Assembly: GCF_035621495.1 (NCBI RefSeq)
Contig: NZ_CP141821.1
Span: 710,760-774,759 of the forward strand
DNA length: 64,000 nt
Origin: Thermococcus sp. SY098
Lineage (GTDB): Archaea > Methanobacteriota_B > Thermococci > Thermococcales > Thermococcaceae
Direction: 5' to 3'
Shown: positions 1 through 13,267 of the stretch, piece after piece
How positions within the stretch are numbered: position 1 is the stretch's first letter
Layout: each line of letters opens with the position of its first letter
Made by a program: the position numbers and the translations under genes
The notes under the pieces: model-generated
Seen by the model: the letters and a program-made list of their open reading frames with translations, nothing else
Told to the model about the DNA's origin: nothing
Databases searched by the model: none

Positions 1-323
1 ATGACACACATCAAACAGCCGATACACTTGTTGGCGTTGAGCACTACAAAGCCTTCTTCGCTCTTCTTTATTGCTCCAGTTGGACAGACTTTCATACATG
101 GAGCATCTTCACAGTGCTGACACCTCAGTGGAACATTGAAGAAATCTGCAACTACAACCTTTAGTCTCGGCTTGGGCGTTGGTTTTTCAAAGATTGCTCC
201 GGATAATGTCTTGCTCATTGAATGCTCTACTGCACATGCTATTTCACAAGATCTGCATCCCATGCACTTCTTTGGATCAATGTAAATTGTTGGTCTCTCT
301 AAACTTGTCTCAAGAAGCGACAT
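1..323 (-). CDS. cooF: CooF-like 4Fe-4S ferredoxin, electron carrier (partial, C-terminus off the left edge)
   Basis: The first 107 residues are visible. Cysteines at 20, 23, 26 and 30, at 68, 71, 76 and 80, and at 100, 103 and 106 form the multi-cluster pattern of the four-cluster ferredoxin subunits (CooF/HycB/DmsB type) that carry electrons between an oxidoreductase and a hydrogenase. The ATG at 323 is preceded by GAGGTGAT at a normal distance. The gene sits directly downstream of the CorQ/CorR-like regulator genes on the same strand, and this is why I favour the carbon monoxide dehydrogenase partner CooF over another HycB-like subunit. The dehydrogenase and hydrogenase genes would lie to the left of the window and are not seen. 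Family confidence is high; the CO assignment is inference from context. Confidence 0.8.
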   Translation of the reverse strand, partial: MSLLETSLERPTIYIDPKKCMGCRSCEIACAVEHSMSKTLSGAIFEKPTPKPRLKVVVADFFNVPLRCQHCEDAPCMKVCPTGAIKKSEEGFVVLNANKCIGCLMCV

Positions 324-426
324 TGTTATCACCTCAAAACTTAGGTAAACAAAGGAGATTAAAAGGAGACCGTGTTCGGCAAATAACTCAAAAACTCCTT
401 AATTTGTTCATGCACAAGAACACGTT
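324..426 (-). promoter_or_regulatory. cooF upstream region with three TGTTC half-sites
   Basis: This gap between corR and cooF has TGTTC on the plus strand at 373-377 and 405-409 and its complement GAACA at 418-422. The last two form TGTTC-N8-GAACA; a longer 7-base inverted pair, CGTGTTC (371-377) and GAACACG (418-424), is also present. No strong TATA box is visible; a weak candidate is CTTTTAATC on the minus strand near 358-366. The arrangement would suit an activator-dependent promoter. Binding by CorR is inference. Confidence 0.4.
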
Positions 427-1545
427 TCAGTATTCATAAAGTGATACTATTGCTTTTTCTCTTATTTCCCTGTACTCTTTTAGAAGATCTTTAGCAAACT
501 CTGTCAGAATCGTTATTCCTTTTTTCCTGCCCCCTCTGACGGATATAATTAAAGAAATGCCCAGTTTTTCTTCGAGACTTCTTACTTTTTCCCAATATGT
601 CGAAGGAGAAACTCCGAGAGCCTTACATGCAGCTCTAAATGAATTAACCTGAGAAATTAGTTCCAAAAGTTCCAAGATCTCCCCAGGGATCTCAACACCC
701 TCTTTTGTCACGAATGAGACCCGTATTTTAGGTGAAAGTCCAACAACGTTTCGATTTATTGTACAGGGTGAAAAGAGCATTTTTCTAAGGTCATCCTTAG
801 TGATTCTCTTATAATTCACTTCAAATCTTGAAAGCGGACATTTTGAGAAGTTCCCATATGGATTCAAGTATAGAGTTTTACAGTTCTCAGCACTTGGAGA
901 GGTCAGCAACGTTACTGGGTAATTGTCTATGAAGACCTTAATGGCATTGTAGAAATACTTCCTTCCATAATGAAGACCAATTTCAACGTTTTCTTTTTTC
1001 GCAATTTTTTCAAGAAATTTATCTGCATATGGAGATGCGTAAAGCTTTGGTCCTAACGTTATCTTTAACCCGTAACTTTTGCACAGTTCAATTGTTGACA
1101 GGATTTCGGCAAAGTCGGAGTTGGAATCCAGCAAAATATACGCCTCAAGATTGTCTATACCCTGAGAAAGGAGCATTTTTACTGTCTGAAGGTTTGACTT
1201 TATGTCCTTATAAGAGGGTATTATTAGAGAAATAAAATCAACGTTTTCAAGGGAAGTTTTGTTGAGAAAATTTCTCGAGACTGATACTGGAATGAAGAGG
1301 GTAAGCTTTCTACAGAGTTCCATAGTTTGCCGGATTATGATGTTAATCTTTGGATGGAGGAGAGGATTTGGGCATGTCAAAAGTCCTTCCTTAAATTTAA
1401 AATCCCCAAGATGAGAGCTGAGTATTTCCAATGCCTCAAGAGGAAGCATTATTCCAGCACAGCCAAATTTCTCTTTCCAAGGACATATCAGACAACTACT
1501 GTCACATTTGCTTGAAGGTTGAACTGCTAAAATGCTCATATCCAT
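427..1545 (-). CDS. corR: CorR-like transcriptional regulator: radical-SAM-like domain fused to LysR/ModE-type winged helix
   Basis: The 372-residue protein has two parts. The N-terminus carries C14-x3-C18-x2-C21 followed by C29, the cluster-binding spacing of radical SAM enzymes, and further cysteines in the middle (NCKTLYLNPYGNFSKCP) that recall the auxiliary-cluster region of SPASM proteins. The last 80 or so residues (SQVNSFRAACKALGVSPSTYW onward) are a winged helix-turn-helix of the LysR N-terminal/ModE type, here placed at the C-terminus. It overlaps the stop of corQ in TGATG, so the two are translationally coupled; a GTG three bases upstream (1548) is an alternative start. In CO-growing Thermococcus a V4R protein (CorQ) and a LysR-like DNA-binding protein (CorR) activate the CO dehydrogenase operon. 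Gene order and position before cooF match that system. Whether the radical SAM fold is catalytic or a redox/CO sensor is unknown. Confidence 0.75.
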   Translation of the reverse strand: MDMSILAVQPSSKCDSSCLICPWKEKFGCAGIMLPLEALEILSSHLGDFKFKEGLLTCPNPLLHPKINIIIRQTMELCRKLTLFIPVSVSRNFLNKTSLENVDFISLIIPSYKDIKSNLQTVKMLLSQGIDNLEAYILLDSNSDFAEILSTIELCKSYGLKITLGPKLYASPYADKFLEKIAKKENVEIGLHYGRKYFYNAIKVFIDNYPVTLLTSPSAENCKTLYLNPYGNFSKCPLSRFEVNYKRITKDDLRKMLFSPCTINRNVVGLSPKIRVSFVTKEGVEIPGEILELLELISQVNSFRAACKALGVSPSTYWEKVRSLEEKLGISLIISVRGGRKKGITILTEFAKDLLKEYREIREKAIVSLYEY

Positions 1546-2105
1546 CACTCGAATATCACTTCAAATCCACAGAAAGAATTGCCAAGTCCCCAGCAGTAGA
1601 TTTCACGAGTTACGTTCTTTCCAACGAGTTCTTCCATGACCCCTTGAATAAGCCCTGCTTCAAAGTCACATAGGGTTCTGCCAATAGGAGGTGCTCGGTA
1701 ACAACTGATGCATTCATATATATTCACTTTCATCTTGCTAAATGACTCGTCCACAATGTCAAGAAGCCCTATTTTTTGATTTAGGAACACCTTCGGTAGG
1801 TCATCAATGCTCCTAATCTCTCCAGTTTCTATTAACCTGCGAGCCAAATTATACCCCGCACCTCTCAAAATTAGAGTCCTCAAAGATGGGCTGTATTCAA
1901 GCATGCCATAAGAAACCATTCTGAATGTCCTCACGTATTCCCTATCCTCTGGGGAGATTTTCACGAAAAACGGACGTACGACATTGAAGTAATTTTCCGG
2001 GGTTAATCTAATCCCTTCTCTATGTTTCCTTTTGCTTCTAACCTCCTCTTTGTAAATTTTCCTCCACTTTTCTATTAGAACACTAACATCTTCCATACCA
2101 ACCAT
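1545..2105 (-). CDS. corQ: CorQ-like V4R (4-vinyl reductase) domain sensor protein
   Basis: The 186-residue protein ends in a V4R domain (about residues 60-186) with cysteines at 132, 135, 146, 171 and 179; the stretch from Y130 to G180 is the typical small-ligand or metal-binding core of this fold. The N-terminal 50 residues are basic and probably helical. V4R domains bind small hydrophobic ligands or metals in regulators and in bacteriochlorophyll enzymes. In Thermococcus onnurineus CorQ is the partner of the DNA-binding CorR in CO-dependent activation, and here it is the first gene of a two-gene unit ending in TGATG overlap with corR. The start at 2105 has no clear ribosome-binding site; ATG at 2096 is equally possible. 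Function by homology and context. Confidence 0.75.
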   Translation of the reverse strand: MVGMEDVSVLIEKWRKIYKEEVRSKRKHREGIRLTPENYFNVVRPFFVKISPEDREYVRTFRMVSYGMLEYSPSLRTLILRGAGYNLARRLIETGEIRSIDDLPKVFLNQKIGLLDIVDESFSKMKVNIYECISCYRAPPIGRTLCDFEAGLIQGVMEELVGKNVTREIYCWGLGNSFCGFEVIFE

Positions 2106-7647: not shown

Positions 7648-7968
7648 ATGATCGAGTTTGTAATACTGCTCGGCATTATTGGTGGATGGGTCATTTTCGC
7701 ATCTACTCTATTTTTGATGCTTGCTCTGGGCAAGATGTGGGGCTTATTAGGAATCGCTCTTTTAATTGCCGGAATTGAAATAAACCACAAACTGAAGGCA
7801 AAGTATATGAAAGCTGTTATGGACTACTCACCAAGAGCAAAAGAGCTTGCAATGCATATATTTGAAATGAATGAGCTCATATTAATGTCATCATATGTAA
7901 TAGCCCTGGCACTTTATGCAGTCATCCAAAAATACATAGAGATAATGATAAAACTTCCTGTGGTGTGA
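7648..7968 (+). CDS. Small membrane protein, function unknown
   Basis: The 106-residue protein has two N-terminal hydrophobic segments (about residues 3-25 and 28-45), a short charged stretch (NHKLKAKYMKAVMDYSPRAKEL) and a third hydrophobic segment (about 75-98). I do not recognise a family. GGTGAAAAA precedes the ATG. It ends five bases before the thiI start and is probably co-transcribed with it, but no functional link is known. Confidence 0.65.
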   Translation: MIEFVILLGIIGGWVIFASTLFLMLALGKMWGLLGIALLIAGIEINHKLKAKYMKAVMDYSPRAKELAMHIFEMNELILMSSYVIALALYAVIQKYIEIMIKLPVV

Positions 7969-7973
7969 GAGCT

Positions 7974-9119
7974 ATGTTTAACTGTGTGATAATTCGATAT
8001 GGAGAAATTGGAACAAAATCAAAGCAAACAAGAAGATGGTTTGAGAACATATTAGTCAATAACATTAGAGAGGCGTTGGTCAGCGAGAGAATTGAGTACA
8101 AAAGTATCTTTGCAAAACATGGAAGGATAATAGTCAAAACAAATAAAGCAAAAGAGAGTGTGGATGTTTTAAAGCGTGTATTTGGCATTGTTTCCCTTTC
8201 TCCAGCGATGGAAGTTAATGCTGAATTAGAAAAAATCAACAGGACTGCTCTGAAGCTCTTCCGCAAAAAGAAGAGAGAGCTTAACCTGGAAAAGCCCAAG
8301 TTCAGAGTTACAGCGAGACGAATTACAAAGGAGTTTCCTCTGAAAAGTCCAGAAATCCAAGCTAAAGTTGGTGAGTATATCCTGGCGAATGAAGAGGCTG
8401 ATGTTGATTTGAAAAACTATGACATAAATGTTGGGATTGAAATTATGGAAGGCAAAGCCTATATCTTTGTTGATAAAATAAAAGCCTTTGGCGGCTTACC
8501 CATAGGGACACAAGGGAAAGTTGTCACTCTGCTTAGCGGCGGGATAGATTCTCCTGTGGCAGCGTTTCTCATGATGAAGAGGGGCTGTGAGGTGATTCCA
8601 GTTCATATATACATGGGAGAGAAAACCCTTGAAAAAGTCAGAAAAATATGGAATCAGCTGAAAAAGTATCACTATGGTGGAAAAAGTGATTTAATCGTGA
8701 TCAAACCAAAGGAAAGAGAAAGAATTCTCCAAAAGCTTAAGGAGCTTGGGAGGGAAAACTACACCTGCATTTTTTGCAAGTTCATGATGGTGAAAAATGC
8801 CGATAAGATAGCGAGAGAATTTGGAGCTAAAGGCATTGTCATGGGGGACTCCCTCGGACAGGTTGCATCCCAAACGCTGGAAAATATGTATATAGTCAGT
8901 CAAGCGAGTGATTTACCTATTTACAGACCGCTCATAGGACTGGACAAGGAAGAGATAGTAAGAATAGCAAAGGAGATAGGTACTTTTGAGTTATCAACAC
9001 TTCCAGAGGATGAAATCCCATTTATCCCAAAGCACCCAGTGATTAGAGGTTCTTGGGAGGAGTTCAAAAAGCTCTACAGAGAAATCTTTGGGGAAGAACC
9101 CAAAAAGAGAGGATGCTAA
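7974..9119 (+). CDS. thiI: tRNA 4-thiouridine synthase ThiI (archaeal type)
   Basis: The 381-residue enzyme has an N-terminal ferredoxin-like domain, a THUMP domain (to about residue 165) and a PP-loop ATPase domain with SGGIDSP for adenylation of U8 in tRNA. It lacks the rhodanese domain of bacterial ThiI, as usual in archaea. A CxxC (YTCIFCKF, residues 265 and 268 in this numbering) is kept. Archaeal ThiI uses a third cysteine 80 residues later to hold an iron-sulfur cluster, but here that position (348) is isoleucine (EDEIPFIPKHP, codon 9015-9017). The protein ends in cysteine, which might substitute. The ATG at 7974 is preferred over an in-frame GTG at 7965. A PP-loop paralogue follows after 20 bases. 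Confidence 0.92.
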   Translation: MFNCVIIRYGEIGTKSKQTRRWFENILVNNIREALVSERIEYKSIFAKHGRIIVKTNKAKESVDVLKRVFGIVSLSPAMEVNAELEKINRTALKLFRKKKRELNLEKPKFRVTARRITKEFPLKSPEIQAKVGEYILANEEADVDLKNYDINVGIEIMEGKAYIFVDKIKAFGGLPIGTQGKVVTLLSGGIDSPVAAFLMMKRGCEVIPVHIYMGEKTLEKVRKIWNQLKKYHYGGKSDLIVIKPKERERILQKLKELGRENYTCIFCKFMMVKNADKIAREFGAKGIVMGDSLGQVASQTLENMYIVSQASDLPIYRPLIGLDKEEIVRIAKEIGTFELSTLPEDEIPFIPKHPVIRGSWEEFKKLYREIFGEEPKKRGC

Positions 9120-9139: not shown

Positions 9140-9733
9140 GTGAAAGCCGTTGCTTTGCTTAGCTCAGGAATAGATTCACCTGTAGCTATTTATTTAATGC
9201 TTAAGAAGGGGTTAGAGGTCATTCCAATCCACTTCAAACAAGATGAAGGCAAGCATAAAAAAGTCCAAAAAATTTGGAAGCGACTGAAGGAACTTTACCC
9301 CGAAAGACTGAAAGAATTAGTCGTCGTAGATGTTTATGAGTATCAAGCTCCTGTTTTTGAAAAGATTATTGAGATGAAAAAGCATAAATGGATTTGTGTC
9401 TTTTGTAAATTCACTATGTACAAGAAAGCCACAGAAATAGCAAGAGAAAACGGGGCATTGGCAATTATAACGGGGGATTCCCTGGGACAGGTTGCATCTC
9501 AAACCCTTGATAATCTGTTTATAATTTCGCTGGCAACAGATCTACCGATCTTGAGACCACTTATTGGCATGGACAAAGAAGAGGTCATAAAAATCGCCAA
9601 GAAAATTGGAACTTTTGATACAAGTATTGAACCTGAAGAAGGTTGCCCCTTTGTACCAAAACATCCAATAATCAGAGGCTCGCTGGGGGAATTCAAGAAA
9701 ATTCATAAAGAGGTTTTTGGGACTTCCTGTTAA
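9140..9733 (+). CDS. Stand-alone ThiI-like PP-loop ATPase with CxxC...C motif
   Basis: This 197-residue protein aligns with only the C-terminal PP-loop domain of the preceding ThiI: SSGIDSPVA, WICVFCKF, ITGDSLGQVASQTL and PFVPKHPIIRGS are shared, with no ferredoxin-like or THUMP domain to bind tRNA. Unlike the full-length ThiI it has all three cysteines of the cluster-binding set (C86, C89, C169; the last in EEGCPF). It starts at GTG 9140 behind GGTGAT and lies 20 bases from thiI, so the two are made together. It may be the sulfur-transferring subunit of a ThiI complex or modify another position; neither is established. Confidence 0.8.
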   Translation: MKAVALLSSGIDSPVAIYLMLKKGLEVIPIHFKQDEGKHKKVQKIWKRLKELYPERLKELVVVDVYEYQAPVFEKIIEMKKHKWICVFCKFTMYKKATEIARENGALAIITGDSLGQVASQTLDNLFIISLATDLPILRPLIGMDKEEVIKIAKKIGTFDTSIEPEEGCPFVPKHPIIRGSLGEFKKIHKEVFGTSC

Positions 9734-11071: not shown

Positions 11072-12013
11072 CTATAATATTCCCCTTTTAACCTTTACTT
11101 TTTCGGGAACTATACTCATGAGTGCATTCTTAACATCATGATATCCTTCTTTTGAAATGCTGAACACGACCTTTCTAATTTTGCCCTTCTTAGGGTCGCG
11201 GTACTTAATATCAACTACTGAGGAAGTCCAACCTTTGTCCAACTTAATTTCTGTGATCATGTCATATGGATAGAACAGCACTGGGAAAACCACATCGTTC
11301 TCATCTACTAATCCCTTAGCTATGCCATCTCTAAGCACGCAGAGATACTGATCAGGTCCATAGTATTCATCTTCAAATACCAGAGCTTTACCAAGTGCTC
11401 TGTGTTTCTTTTCCTCCTCCCTGGCTCGCTCTATTGCTTCAGTCCATTCTTCAAATATTTTCTCATCAGTGTAAAACCTCTCAATAAGGTTCATAACTTC
11501 TGTGTAGCTAGCGTTTAGGGATATATCAAATGCCAAGCCAAGTGCCCTAACACCTCCTTGAAGAAGGTAAGTACCGTCAGGCGTCAGATACATGAACAAT
11601 GCTCCTTCTTCTCGATCAATTATCATTGTAACCGGTATTTTCTTACCCTTTTCAATGTCCTTCTGTTCTTTTTTTGAATACTTCTTGGGGAGTTTTGCAA
11701 AAACATCTAATGCCTCTTCTAACGTTAATTTCCCGAGCTTTATCTCTTTGTCGTTTCCTGTAAACCTTTCCAAATCAATGGAAACTCCATTAACTTCTAC
11801 TTCGCATTTAACTTCTTTCTTGAAAAGTTTTTTACCAATTTTCAGTTCTGCAACTTTCAATTCTTCTCCATGTTCTTTTTGTTCTTTCCCGGATTTTGAA
11901 ATTCCCCCTCGTAGTCCAAGCTTTTCTTTGACTTTCCTCAAGTCATAGCCACAGACAGGGCAGAAATCAAACTCCACATCAACCTCTGTGCCGCACTTAG
12001 GGCAGAACAACAT
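11072..12013 (-). CDS. Zinc-ribbon protein of a duplicated family, function unknown
   Basis: The 313-residue product opens with a double CxxC zinc ribbon (FCPKCGTEV and FCPVCGYDL), then a charged linker and a globular part with IKLGKLTLEEALDVFAKLPKKY, ending in KVKVKRGIL. GGGAGGGAT sits before the ATG and a TATA box (cttataaac on the minus strand, about 12043-12053) is well placed. The neighbouring divergent gene at 12257 encodes a paralogue sharing the ribbon, the IKLGKL-L-EAL--F-KLPK-Y block and the C-terminal end. No reaction is known; ribbon-led proteins of this type usually mediate protein or nucleic acid contacts. Confidence 0.75.
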   Translation of the reverse strand: MLFCPKCGTEVDVEFDFCPVCGYDLRKVKEKLGLRGGISKSGKEQKEHGEELKVAELKIGKKLFKKEVKCEVEVNGVSIDLERFTGNDKEIKLGKLTLEEALDVFAKLPKKYSKKEQKDIEKGKKIPVTMIIDREEGALFMYLTPDGTYLLQGGVRALGLAFDISLNASYTEVMNLIERFYTDEKIFEEWTEAIERAREEEKKHRALGKALVFEDEYYGPDQYLCVLRDGIAKGLVDENDVVFPVLFYPYDMITEIKLDKGWTSSVVDIKYRDPKKGKIRKVVFSISKEGYHDVKNALMSIVPEKVKVKRGIL

Positions 12014-12230: not shown

Positions 12231-12256
12231 TCGGCTCATGAGTGGAGGGGATATTG

Positions 12257-13267
12257 TTGTCCCATAACTTTAGATTTTGTCCCTATTGTGGAGGCGAGCT
12301 TAGGGGGGACTTTAGATTCTGCCCATACTGTGGAGCATCCCTTGAGAGCACCAGGACCGCTCAAAATGCTCCAGAGCCCAGAACTCCCGAACGAAAAGCT
12401 CCCGTAATGGAGAGAGTTTCCACCCCTCAACCCATAATCGAGCCGGAAGAATTTCAGAGAGGATTCTCTCTGAGCTATATCCCAGTTGGCAAAGTTACAT
12501 CAAAAGAGAAAAAGTTGAATATCCATATTGGAGGGGTCAACAAAAACTTTGCTTTTGACGGCTCAAAGGGTATAAAACTGGGAAAACTGAGACTCACCGA
12601 GGCTCTAAGAGCTTTTGAAAAACTTCCAAAGTCATATCCACGATCACTCTCGGAGAATGACAATCTCATCCAATTTGAAGTTAATCACCGCCTTTACATA
12701 GGGCTGAGTCCTATAGATGAAGAAAAATACAGAATCGTTGCAATTATAGGCTCAGGACATGTTTATGCAGGAGCAATTGTGTTCACAGTACTTGAAGATG
12801 CAGATTATGATGAAGCAGTTGAAGCGATAAAAAGATATTATAGGGAGGGGGATGAATTCCTCAAAAATGCTTACAAAGCCAAAGAGAAGTTCTTGGAAGA
12901 AAAGGAGACATCAGAAGGCAAATACCTTCTCAAGATACCAGGAGTTTTTATAAGGTACGACACAGAAGCATACATCTCTTCGGTTCTATATCTCGTGAAG
13001 GAAGGGCTTAAGTTTTATCCGCATGATGGAAACTATCTCCATATGGAAATGCCAGAAGATTTGCCGTATTTTGCAAGGGAAGGCATAGAAAAGATAAAAT
13101 TCAACAAAAAGTACACCGAGATGGAGATAACTTATAGAGATGACAACGGCAGAAAGAAGACATTCACATATGCCTTTCTTATACCAGAAGAAGGAAGACG
13201 GTATTATCAGATTCTCTCGTCTGAATTTCCCGGAAGAGTTAAAGTTAAAGGGGGTTGGTTTGGATGA
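12257..13267 (+). CDS. Zinc-ribbon protein, divergent paralogue of the 11072-12013 product
   Basis: The product begins LSHNFRFCPYCGGELRGDF and continues RFCPYCG, a double zinc ribbon, then a proline-rich linker, and a domain of about 260 residues with IKLGKLRLTEALRAFEKLPKSY and VKVKGGWFG at the end, all shared with the divergent neighbour. The start is uncertain: GTG 12242, TTG 12254 or TTG 12257; the GGAGGGG at 12244-12250 favours a TTG start. The next gene overlaps its stop in ATGA. The head-to-head arrangement suggests tandem duplication followed by inversion, or co-regulated partners. Function unknown. Confidence 0.72.
   Translation: MSHNFRFCPYCGGELRGDFRFCPYCGASLESTRTAQNAPEPRTPERKAPVMERVSTPQPIIEPEEFQRGFSLSYIPVGKVTSKEKKLNIHIGGVNKNFAFDGSKGIKLGKLRLTEALRAFEKLPKSYPRSLSENDNLIQFEVNHRLYIGLSPIDEEKYRIVAIIGSGHVYAGAIVFTVLEDADYDEAVEAIKRYYREGDEFLKNAYKAKEKFLEEKETSEGKYLLKIPGVFIRYDTEAYISSVLYLVKEGLKFYPHDGNYLHMEMPEDLPYFAREGIEKIKFNKKYTEMEITYRDDNGRKKTFTYAFLIPEEGRRYYQILSSEFPGRVKVKGGWFG

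Follow-up and report, generated by a model that had tools for sequence, protein, structure and literature searches.

CorR, a CO-responsive regulator of Thermococcus, carries a degenerate MoaA-type radical-SAM domain with two putative iron–sulfur cluster sites

Introduction

Regulators of CO-oxidation genes that respond to CO include CooA and RcoM, which are haem-based, and CoxC, which has an MHYT domain. In Thermococcus onnurineus NA1, the gene pair CorQR is cited as a CO-dependent activator of the CO dehydrogenase (CODH) gene cluster (PMC4791640) and has been described as an LTTR DNA-binding domain with a 4-vinyl reductase partner (PMC6557876). The introduction of the latter paper calls the LTTR domain CorQ and the 4-vinyl reductase domain CorR, which is the reverse of the naming used here. 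That CorQR is an activator responding to CO is known, but in the literature surveyed the chemistry by which CO is sensed has not been worked out.

Here we analyse CorR of Thermococcus sp. SY098, encoded in a stretch of 64,000 nucleotides (contig NZ_CP141821.1, positions 710,760 to 774,759), referred to below as the window. The gene pair, and its place before cooF and CODH, are the same as in T. onnurineus. CorR shows neither the haem-based kind of domain of CooA and RcoM nor the MHYT domain of CoxC. It shares the winged helix-turn-helix (HTH) of LysR-type regulators (PF00126) and the DNA-binding domain of ModE (PDB 2ijl), but its HTH is C-terminal and is accompanied by neither the PBP-like effector domain of the former nor the molybdate-binding domain of the latter. 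Its nearest relative in both fold and profile is MoaA, the radical-SAM GTP 3',8-cyclase with a C-terminal auxiliary [4Fe-4S] cluster. Like MoaA, CorR has a CX3CX2C motif, the barrel order and two of the three auxiliary-cluster cysteines. Unlike this cofactor enzyme, it is a regulator with an HTH fused at the C-terminus, in which GGE is lost (CPN), the other SAM motifs are not kept and one auxiliary cysteine has moved. The CorQR descriptions in the passages of the citing papers mention no radical-SAM domain, and the literature searched contained no description of one in CorR, or of any transcription factor derived from a radical-SAM protein. Such an absence is no proof that no description exists.

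Results

Organization of the locus

The features discussed below are as follows.

corR, 427–1545, minus strand: 372 aa, with a degenerate MoaA-type radical-SAM domain (about residues 1–200), a twitch-like region (about 200–265) and a C-terminal winged HTH of the LysR/ModE type
C14-x3-C18-x2-C21 triad, 1483–1506, minus strand: radical-SAM cluster motif
C58-P-N-P61, 1363–1374, minus strand: replaces the radical-SAM GGEP
C222 ... C236-P ... C261, 763–882, minus strand: cysteines like those of the twitch/MoaA auxiliary cluster
Winged HTH, LysR/ModE type, 451–690, minus strand: about residues 286–365 (PF00126, TIGR00637, PDB 2ijl)
corQ, 1545–2105, minus strand: V4R (4-vinyl reductase) domain (PF02830, E 2.5e-13), with C132, C135, C146, C171 and C179; its end overlaps corR (start/stop)
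cooF-type ferredoxin gene, 5' part, 1–323, minus strand: first gene of a CODH-hydrogenase-antiporter cluster that continues left of the window

The corR reading frame runs from 1545 down to 427; a GTG at 1548 is an alternative start. The earlier note on this DNA had read a CX3CX2C motif at C14/C18/C21, followed by later cysteines, and both are present exactly as described, the later ones being C29, C58, C78, C155, C222, C236, C261 and C307. The DNA-binding domain that it placed at the C-terminus is also found: residues 291–351 match PF00126 above the cut-off (E 1.5e-8), and the nearest PDB relative of this part is the ModE-type domain 2ijl. The ModE model TIGR00637 matched residues 289–362 with E 2e-10, although its 40.5 bits lie below the cut-off of 98.5. 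In the same domain-model search, the first 265 residues of CorR were left without a match to any library model, and no molybdate-binding domain was found.

To the left of the window (locus L006) lie genes for a CooF-type ferredoxin (Fer4), CODH, a CooC-like ATPase and subunits of a hydrogenase and an antiporter; this is the Thermococcus CO-to-hydrogen cluster. A V4R gene and an HTH gene adjoin it, as expected for CorQR. The V4R triad of CorQ (C146, C171, C179) is conserved both in Thermococcaceae and in a second archaeal phylum, whose homologues are described below.

Radical-SAM ancestry of the N-terminal domain

Sequence profiles, a genome search and a predicted structure agree, and on these grounds residues 1–265 of CorR are established as truly homologous to radical-SAM proteins of the MoaA type. 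The CorR profile aligned with archaeal MoaA using hhalign with a score of 48.1 (E 3.8e-6); none of 100 column-shuffled profiles exceeded 21.6, and the reversed profile gave 15.1. The N-domain alignment alone scored 52.6 (E 8.8e-7). This strong match needed the second-phylum homologues in the profile; with Thermococcaceae sequences only it was weak (hhalign probability 9%). The alignment places C14/C18/C21 on the CX3CX2C of MoaA, and C58-P-N-P on GGEP. It also pairs C222 with C252 of MoaA and C236 with C266, both of which are cysteines of the auxiliary cluster. When six genomes were searched with the N-domain profile, the best match other than CorR was MoaA (E 2.9e-8), the next was a second, MoaA-like protein (E 6e-4), and those of the weaker matches that were inspected were all radical-SAM proteins. 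The Pfam Radical_SAM model (PF04055) matched 8 of 17 CorR members at E<1; the homologue L049 exceeded the cut-off of 29.5 with 31.9 bits, while the window CorR fell below it.

An AlphaFold2 model built from 23 sequences, superseding an earlier one from 15 close sequences (pLDDT 65), reached a mean pLDDT of 83.8 and a pTM of 0.69; the surroundings of the CX3CX2C loop are modelled less confidently, at about 65. Strands and helices alternate in it, and the CX3CX2C sits after strand 1, as in the radical-SAM superfamily. Compared with the PDB, the model retrieved MoaA first (E 2.2e-9), followed by SuiB, viperin, SkfB, AbmM, BlsE and anSME, and its C-terminus was matched by LysR/ModE domains. In line with the earlier note, the domain is radical-SAM-derived and its predicted fold is TIM-barrel-like; the lack of a partial TIM barrel, which would have counted against the note, is not what the model shows.

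Invariant cysteines and loss of the SAM site

Thermococcaceae and the second phylum together provided 21 full-length CorRs for comparison. In the whole protein 24 columns are invariant, 15 of them in the N-domain: C14, C18, C21, L34, C58, P59, L99, L125, G159, P210, C222, G231, C236, P237 and C261. These comprise seven cysteines, three prolines, two of which directly follow a cysteine, and five leucines or glycines. All seven cysteines are retained even in L075, the most diverged CorR. To judge from this alignment, the CX3CX2C triad is no chance occurrence, because it is invariant in 21/21 homologues at identities down to about 24%. Variation of these cysteines among close homologues, which would have counted against the earlier note, is not seen. 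All the remaining cysteines vary, and C29, C78, C155 and C307 were rejected as cluster ligands for that reason.

The result differs for the SAM site, which the earlier note had proposed to look for and which is not supported in intact form. In the radical-SAM superfamily, GGE is the motif in contact with the methionine moiety of SAM. In CorR the corresponding columns read C-P-N/D in all complete members except L075, which has C-P-W and a short gap there, and the other SAM-binding motifs lack any invariant position. By motif, CorR thus does not pass for an active radical-SAM enzyme, whereas it does pass for a member of the superfamily in its fold and its pattern of cluster cysteines. An auxiliary cluster of the MoaA/twitch kind calls for at least three cysteines, and CorR offers three invariant candidates (C222, C236 and C261), two of which align with MoaA ligands. 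Six second-phylum homologues add an eighth cysteine at a distance of four residues ahead of C222, a pattern that resembles the CxxC of MoaA. The loss of GGE, where C58 now stands invariant, the second set of cysteines and the occurrence of the architecture in a second phylum all go beyond the earlier note, as read from the sequences.

Occurrence with one CODH type

CorR was detected in 16 of 94 Thermococcaceae genomes. CODH genes of this family (G000–G093) fall into score bands, and only the highest-scoring, CorQR-linked type (762–793 bits) goes with CorR: 15/15 genomes with this type carry it at a distance of about 1 kb. CorR is lacking where all CODH genes are of lower-scoring types, except in the sixteenth genome (G064), where the corR contig is cut short at 5.2 kb. 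The other CODH types must therefore be regulated otherwise. The link to CO that the earlier note had drawn for corR holds in this sense, with corR and corQ tied to one CODH type and adjoining cooF and CODH.

Distant full-length homologues, 24–28% identical, occur in a second archaeal phylum, which we take to be Korarchaeota, one of the genomes (G150) presumably being that of Candidatus Korarchaeum cryptofilum. The gene order there is corQ(V4R)-corR-cooF-CODH-cooC, followed by HdrABC-like genes, with no hydrogenase at that place. In five loci (L048, L049, L051, L052 and L053), the genes that follow are HdrA/MvhD/HdrC/HdrB-like. Their presence in place of hydrogenase genes suggests that electrons from CO pass to a heterodisulfide-reductase-like complex. 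In one genome (G280; L050:8847-9785), the corR frame is interrupted near its 5' part and the N-terminal piece lies in another frame, which could reflect an error in sequencing as well as a broken gene. Beyond these two groups, CorR was not found in the roughly 400 archaeal genomes sampled or, for bacteria, in a scan of contigs for close relatives. A set of HTH-only homologues (L054–L067, frames of 340–370 aa) was rejected as CorR, the eight scanned having a ModE-like N-terminal HTH and a PBP_like domain.

A candidate operator upstream of cooF

The gap between corR and cooF contains a short motif:

CCGAACACG, 371–379, minus strand: candidate operator of CorR, lying 56 bp before the ATG of cooF

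It is found in the corR-cooF gap of 15/15 Thermococcaceae loci, a count in which one MAG is entered twice (L003 and L011), always 54–57 bp before the start codon. Its bases are invariant, 9/9, throughout these loci, compared with 5/51 flanking columns in seven representatives, and it occurs once in the window, where 0.09 occurrences are expected. In some species it is part of a dyad, TGTTC-N8-GAACA. Its upstream position suits an archaeal activator. The motif is a candidate operator, or activator site of the CODH operon, with CorR as its putative ligand.

EnfR was considered as the owner of the motif. In L020, which its EnfR site marks as very probably T. onnurineus NA1 and whose CorR is a 53% identical orthologue of the window protein, the published EnfR 36-mer lies directly downstream of it; since the EnfR site is just downstream, the motif is probably not EnfR's. 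It was not seen in the few second-phylum stretches upstream of cooF that were read, and a longer pattern of the promoter had no match in its own genome.

Discussion

We favour, with somewhat better than even confidence, a view of CorR as a retired MoaA/twitch radical-SAM domain that acts as a non-catalytic, two-cluster iron–sulfur sensor-activator together with CorQ. Cluster I would sit on C14/C18/C21, with C58, which occupies the GGE position beside the place of SAM at the unique iron, as its likely fourth ligand. Cluster II would be held by C222/C236/C261, with one non-cysteine site in Thermococcaceae and a probable fourth cysteine in most second-phylum homologues. The signal could be CO binding to iron, or a change in cluster redox state once CO lowers the ferredoxin potential. 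Either would alter DNA binding by the C-terminal LysR/ModE winged helix, jointly with the V4R protein CorQ, at a site, for which CCGAACACG is the candidate, just upstream of the cooF-CODH promoter, and so recruit transcription. In sum, CorR probably senses CO or redox state through iron–sulfur clusters and not through haem. It would be a case of a catalytic fold re-used for regulation, and a MoaA-like domain with two clusters and no SAM site makes a concrete, testable sensor in which the exact residues to mutate can be named. This is relevant, too, to archaeal strains that have been engineered to produce hydrogen from CO.

A bolder form of this idea, in which CorR by itself is a haem-free CO sensor and the change from GGE to CPN turned a radical-SAM cluster site into a regulatory iron–sulfur site, is tentative and to our mind rather doubtful. 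C58 would then be a displaceable fourth ligand, or the second cluster, with three cysteines, would leave an iron open to CO. If correct, this would be the first transcription factor derived from a radical-SAM protein, as well as a haem-free route to CO sensing. As the place where the signal is perceived, the strongest competitor is CorQ, in which the metal site of V4R would bind CO or a CO-derived signal, leaving the CorR clusters a structural role or that of a redox threshold. Other regulators use V4R as a sensory domain, corQ always adjoins corR, with V4R in the second phylum too, and the triad C146/C171/C179 is kept in both groups; in the literature (PMC6557876), it is also the 4-vinyl reductase domain that is credited with sensing CO. 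As the site where CO is perceived, CorQ and CorR are equally plausible, yet perception by CorQ, which we hold possible but no favourite, leaves unexplained why, at identities of about 25% and with most of the remaining domain drifted, the seven cysteines are among the few positions that CorR has kept.

A slightly stronger minority case can be made for clusters that sense electron pressure, in the form of reduced CooF ferredoxin or a low redox potential, rather than CO itself. corR lies directly upstream of cooF and CODH, a proline follows C236 and C58 as in many iron–sulfur ligands, and the open-site geometry of the CorR clusters is putative; however, the response reported is to CO. That CorR is still an active radical-SAM enzyme with a divergent SAM site, regulating through its product or through SAM binding, appears improbable to us: CX3CX2C and the barrel are kept, and GxN(D)-like residues persist after strand 5 in some homologues (L049, L075), but the loss of GGE and of any invariant position in the other SAM-binding motifs speak against it. 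We give an equally slim chance to cysteines that bind zinc or form disulfides in place of an iron–sulfur cluster. Structural zinc is frequent in proteins of thermophiles and clusters are invisible from sequence, but each of the two sets of CorR cysteines aligns with one of the cluster sites of MoaA, and a strictly anaerobic setting suits iron–sulfur chemistry.

Other genes in the window

Two further gene pairs were observed. A ThiI-like gene (7965–9119, plus strand) is followed by a shorter one (9140–9733, plus strand) that resembles only its C-terminal PP-loop part, with a CxxC, and is perhaps a split or partial duplicate of it. Two divergent genes (11072–12013, minus strand, and 12242–13267, plus strand) encode proteins that carry zinc-ribbon-like CxxC motifs at their N-termini and resemble each other in their middle segments; the two are apparently paralogues.
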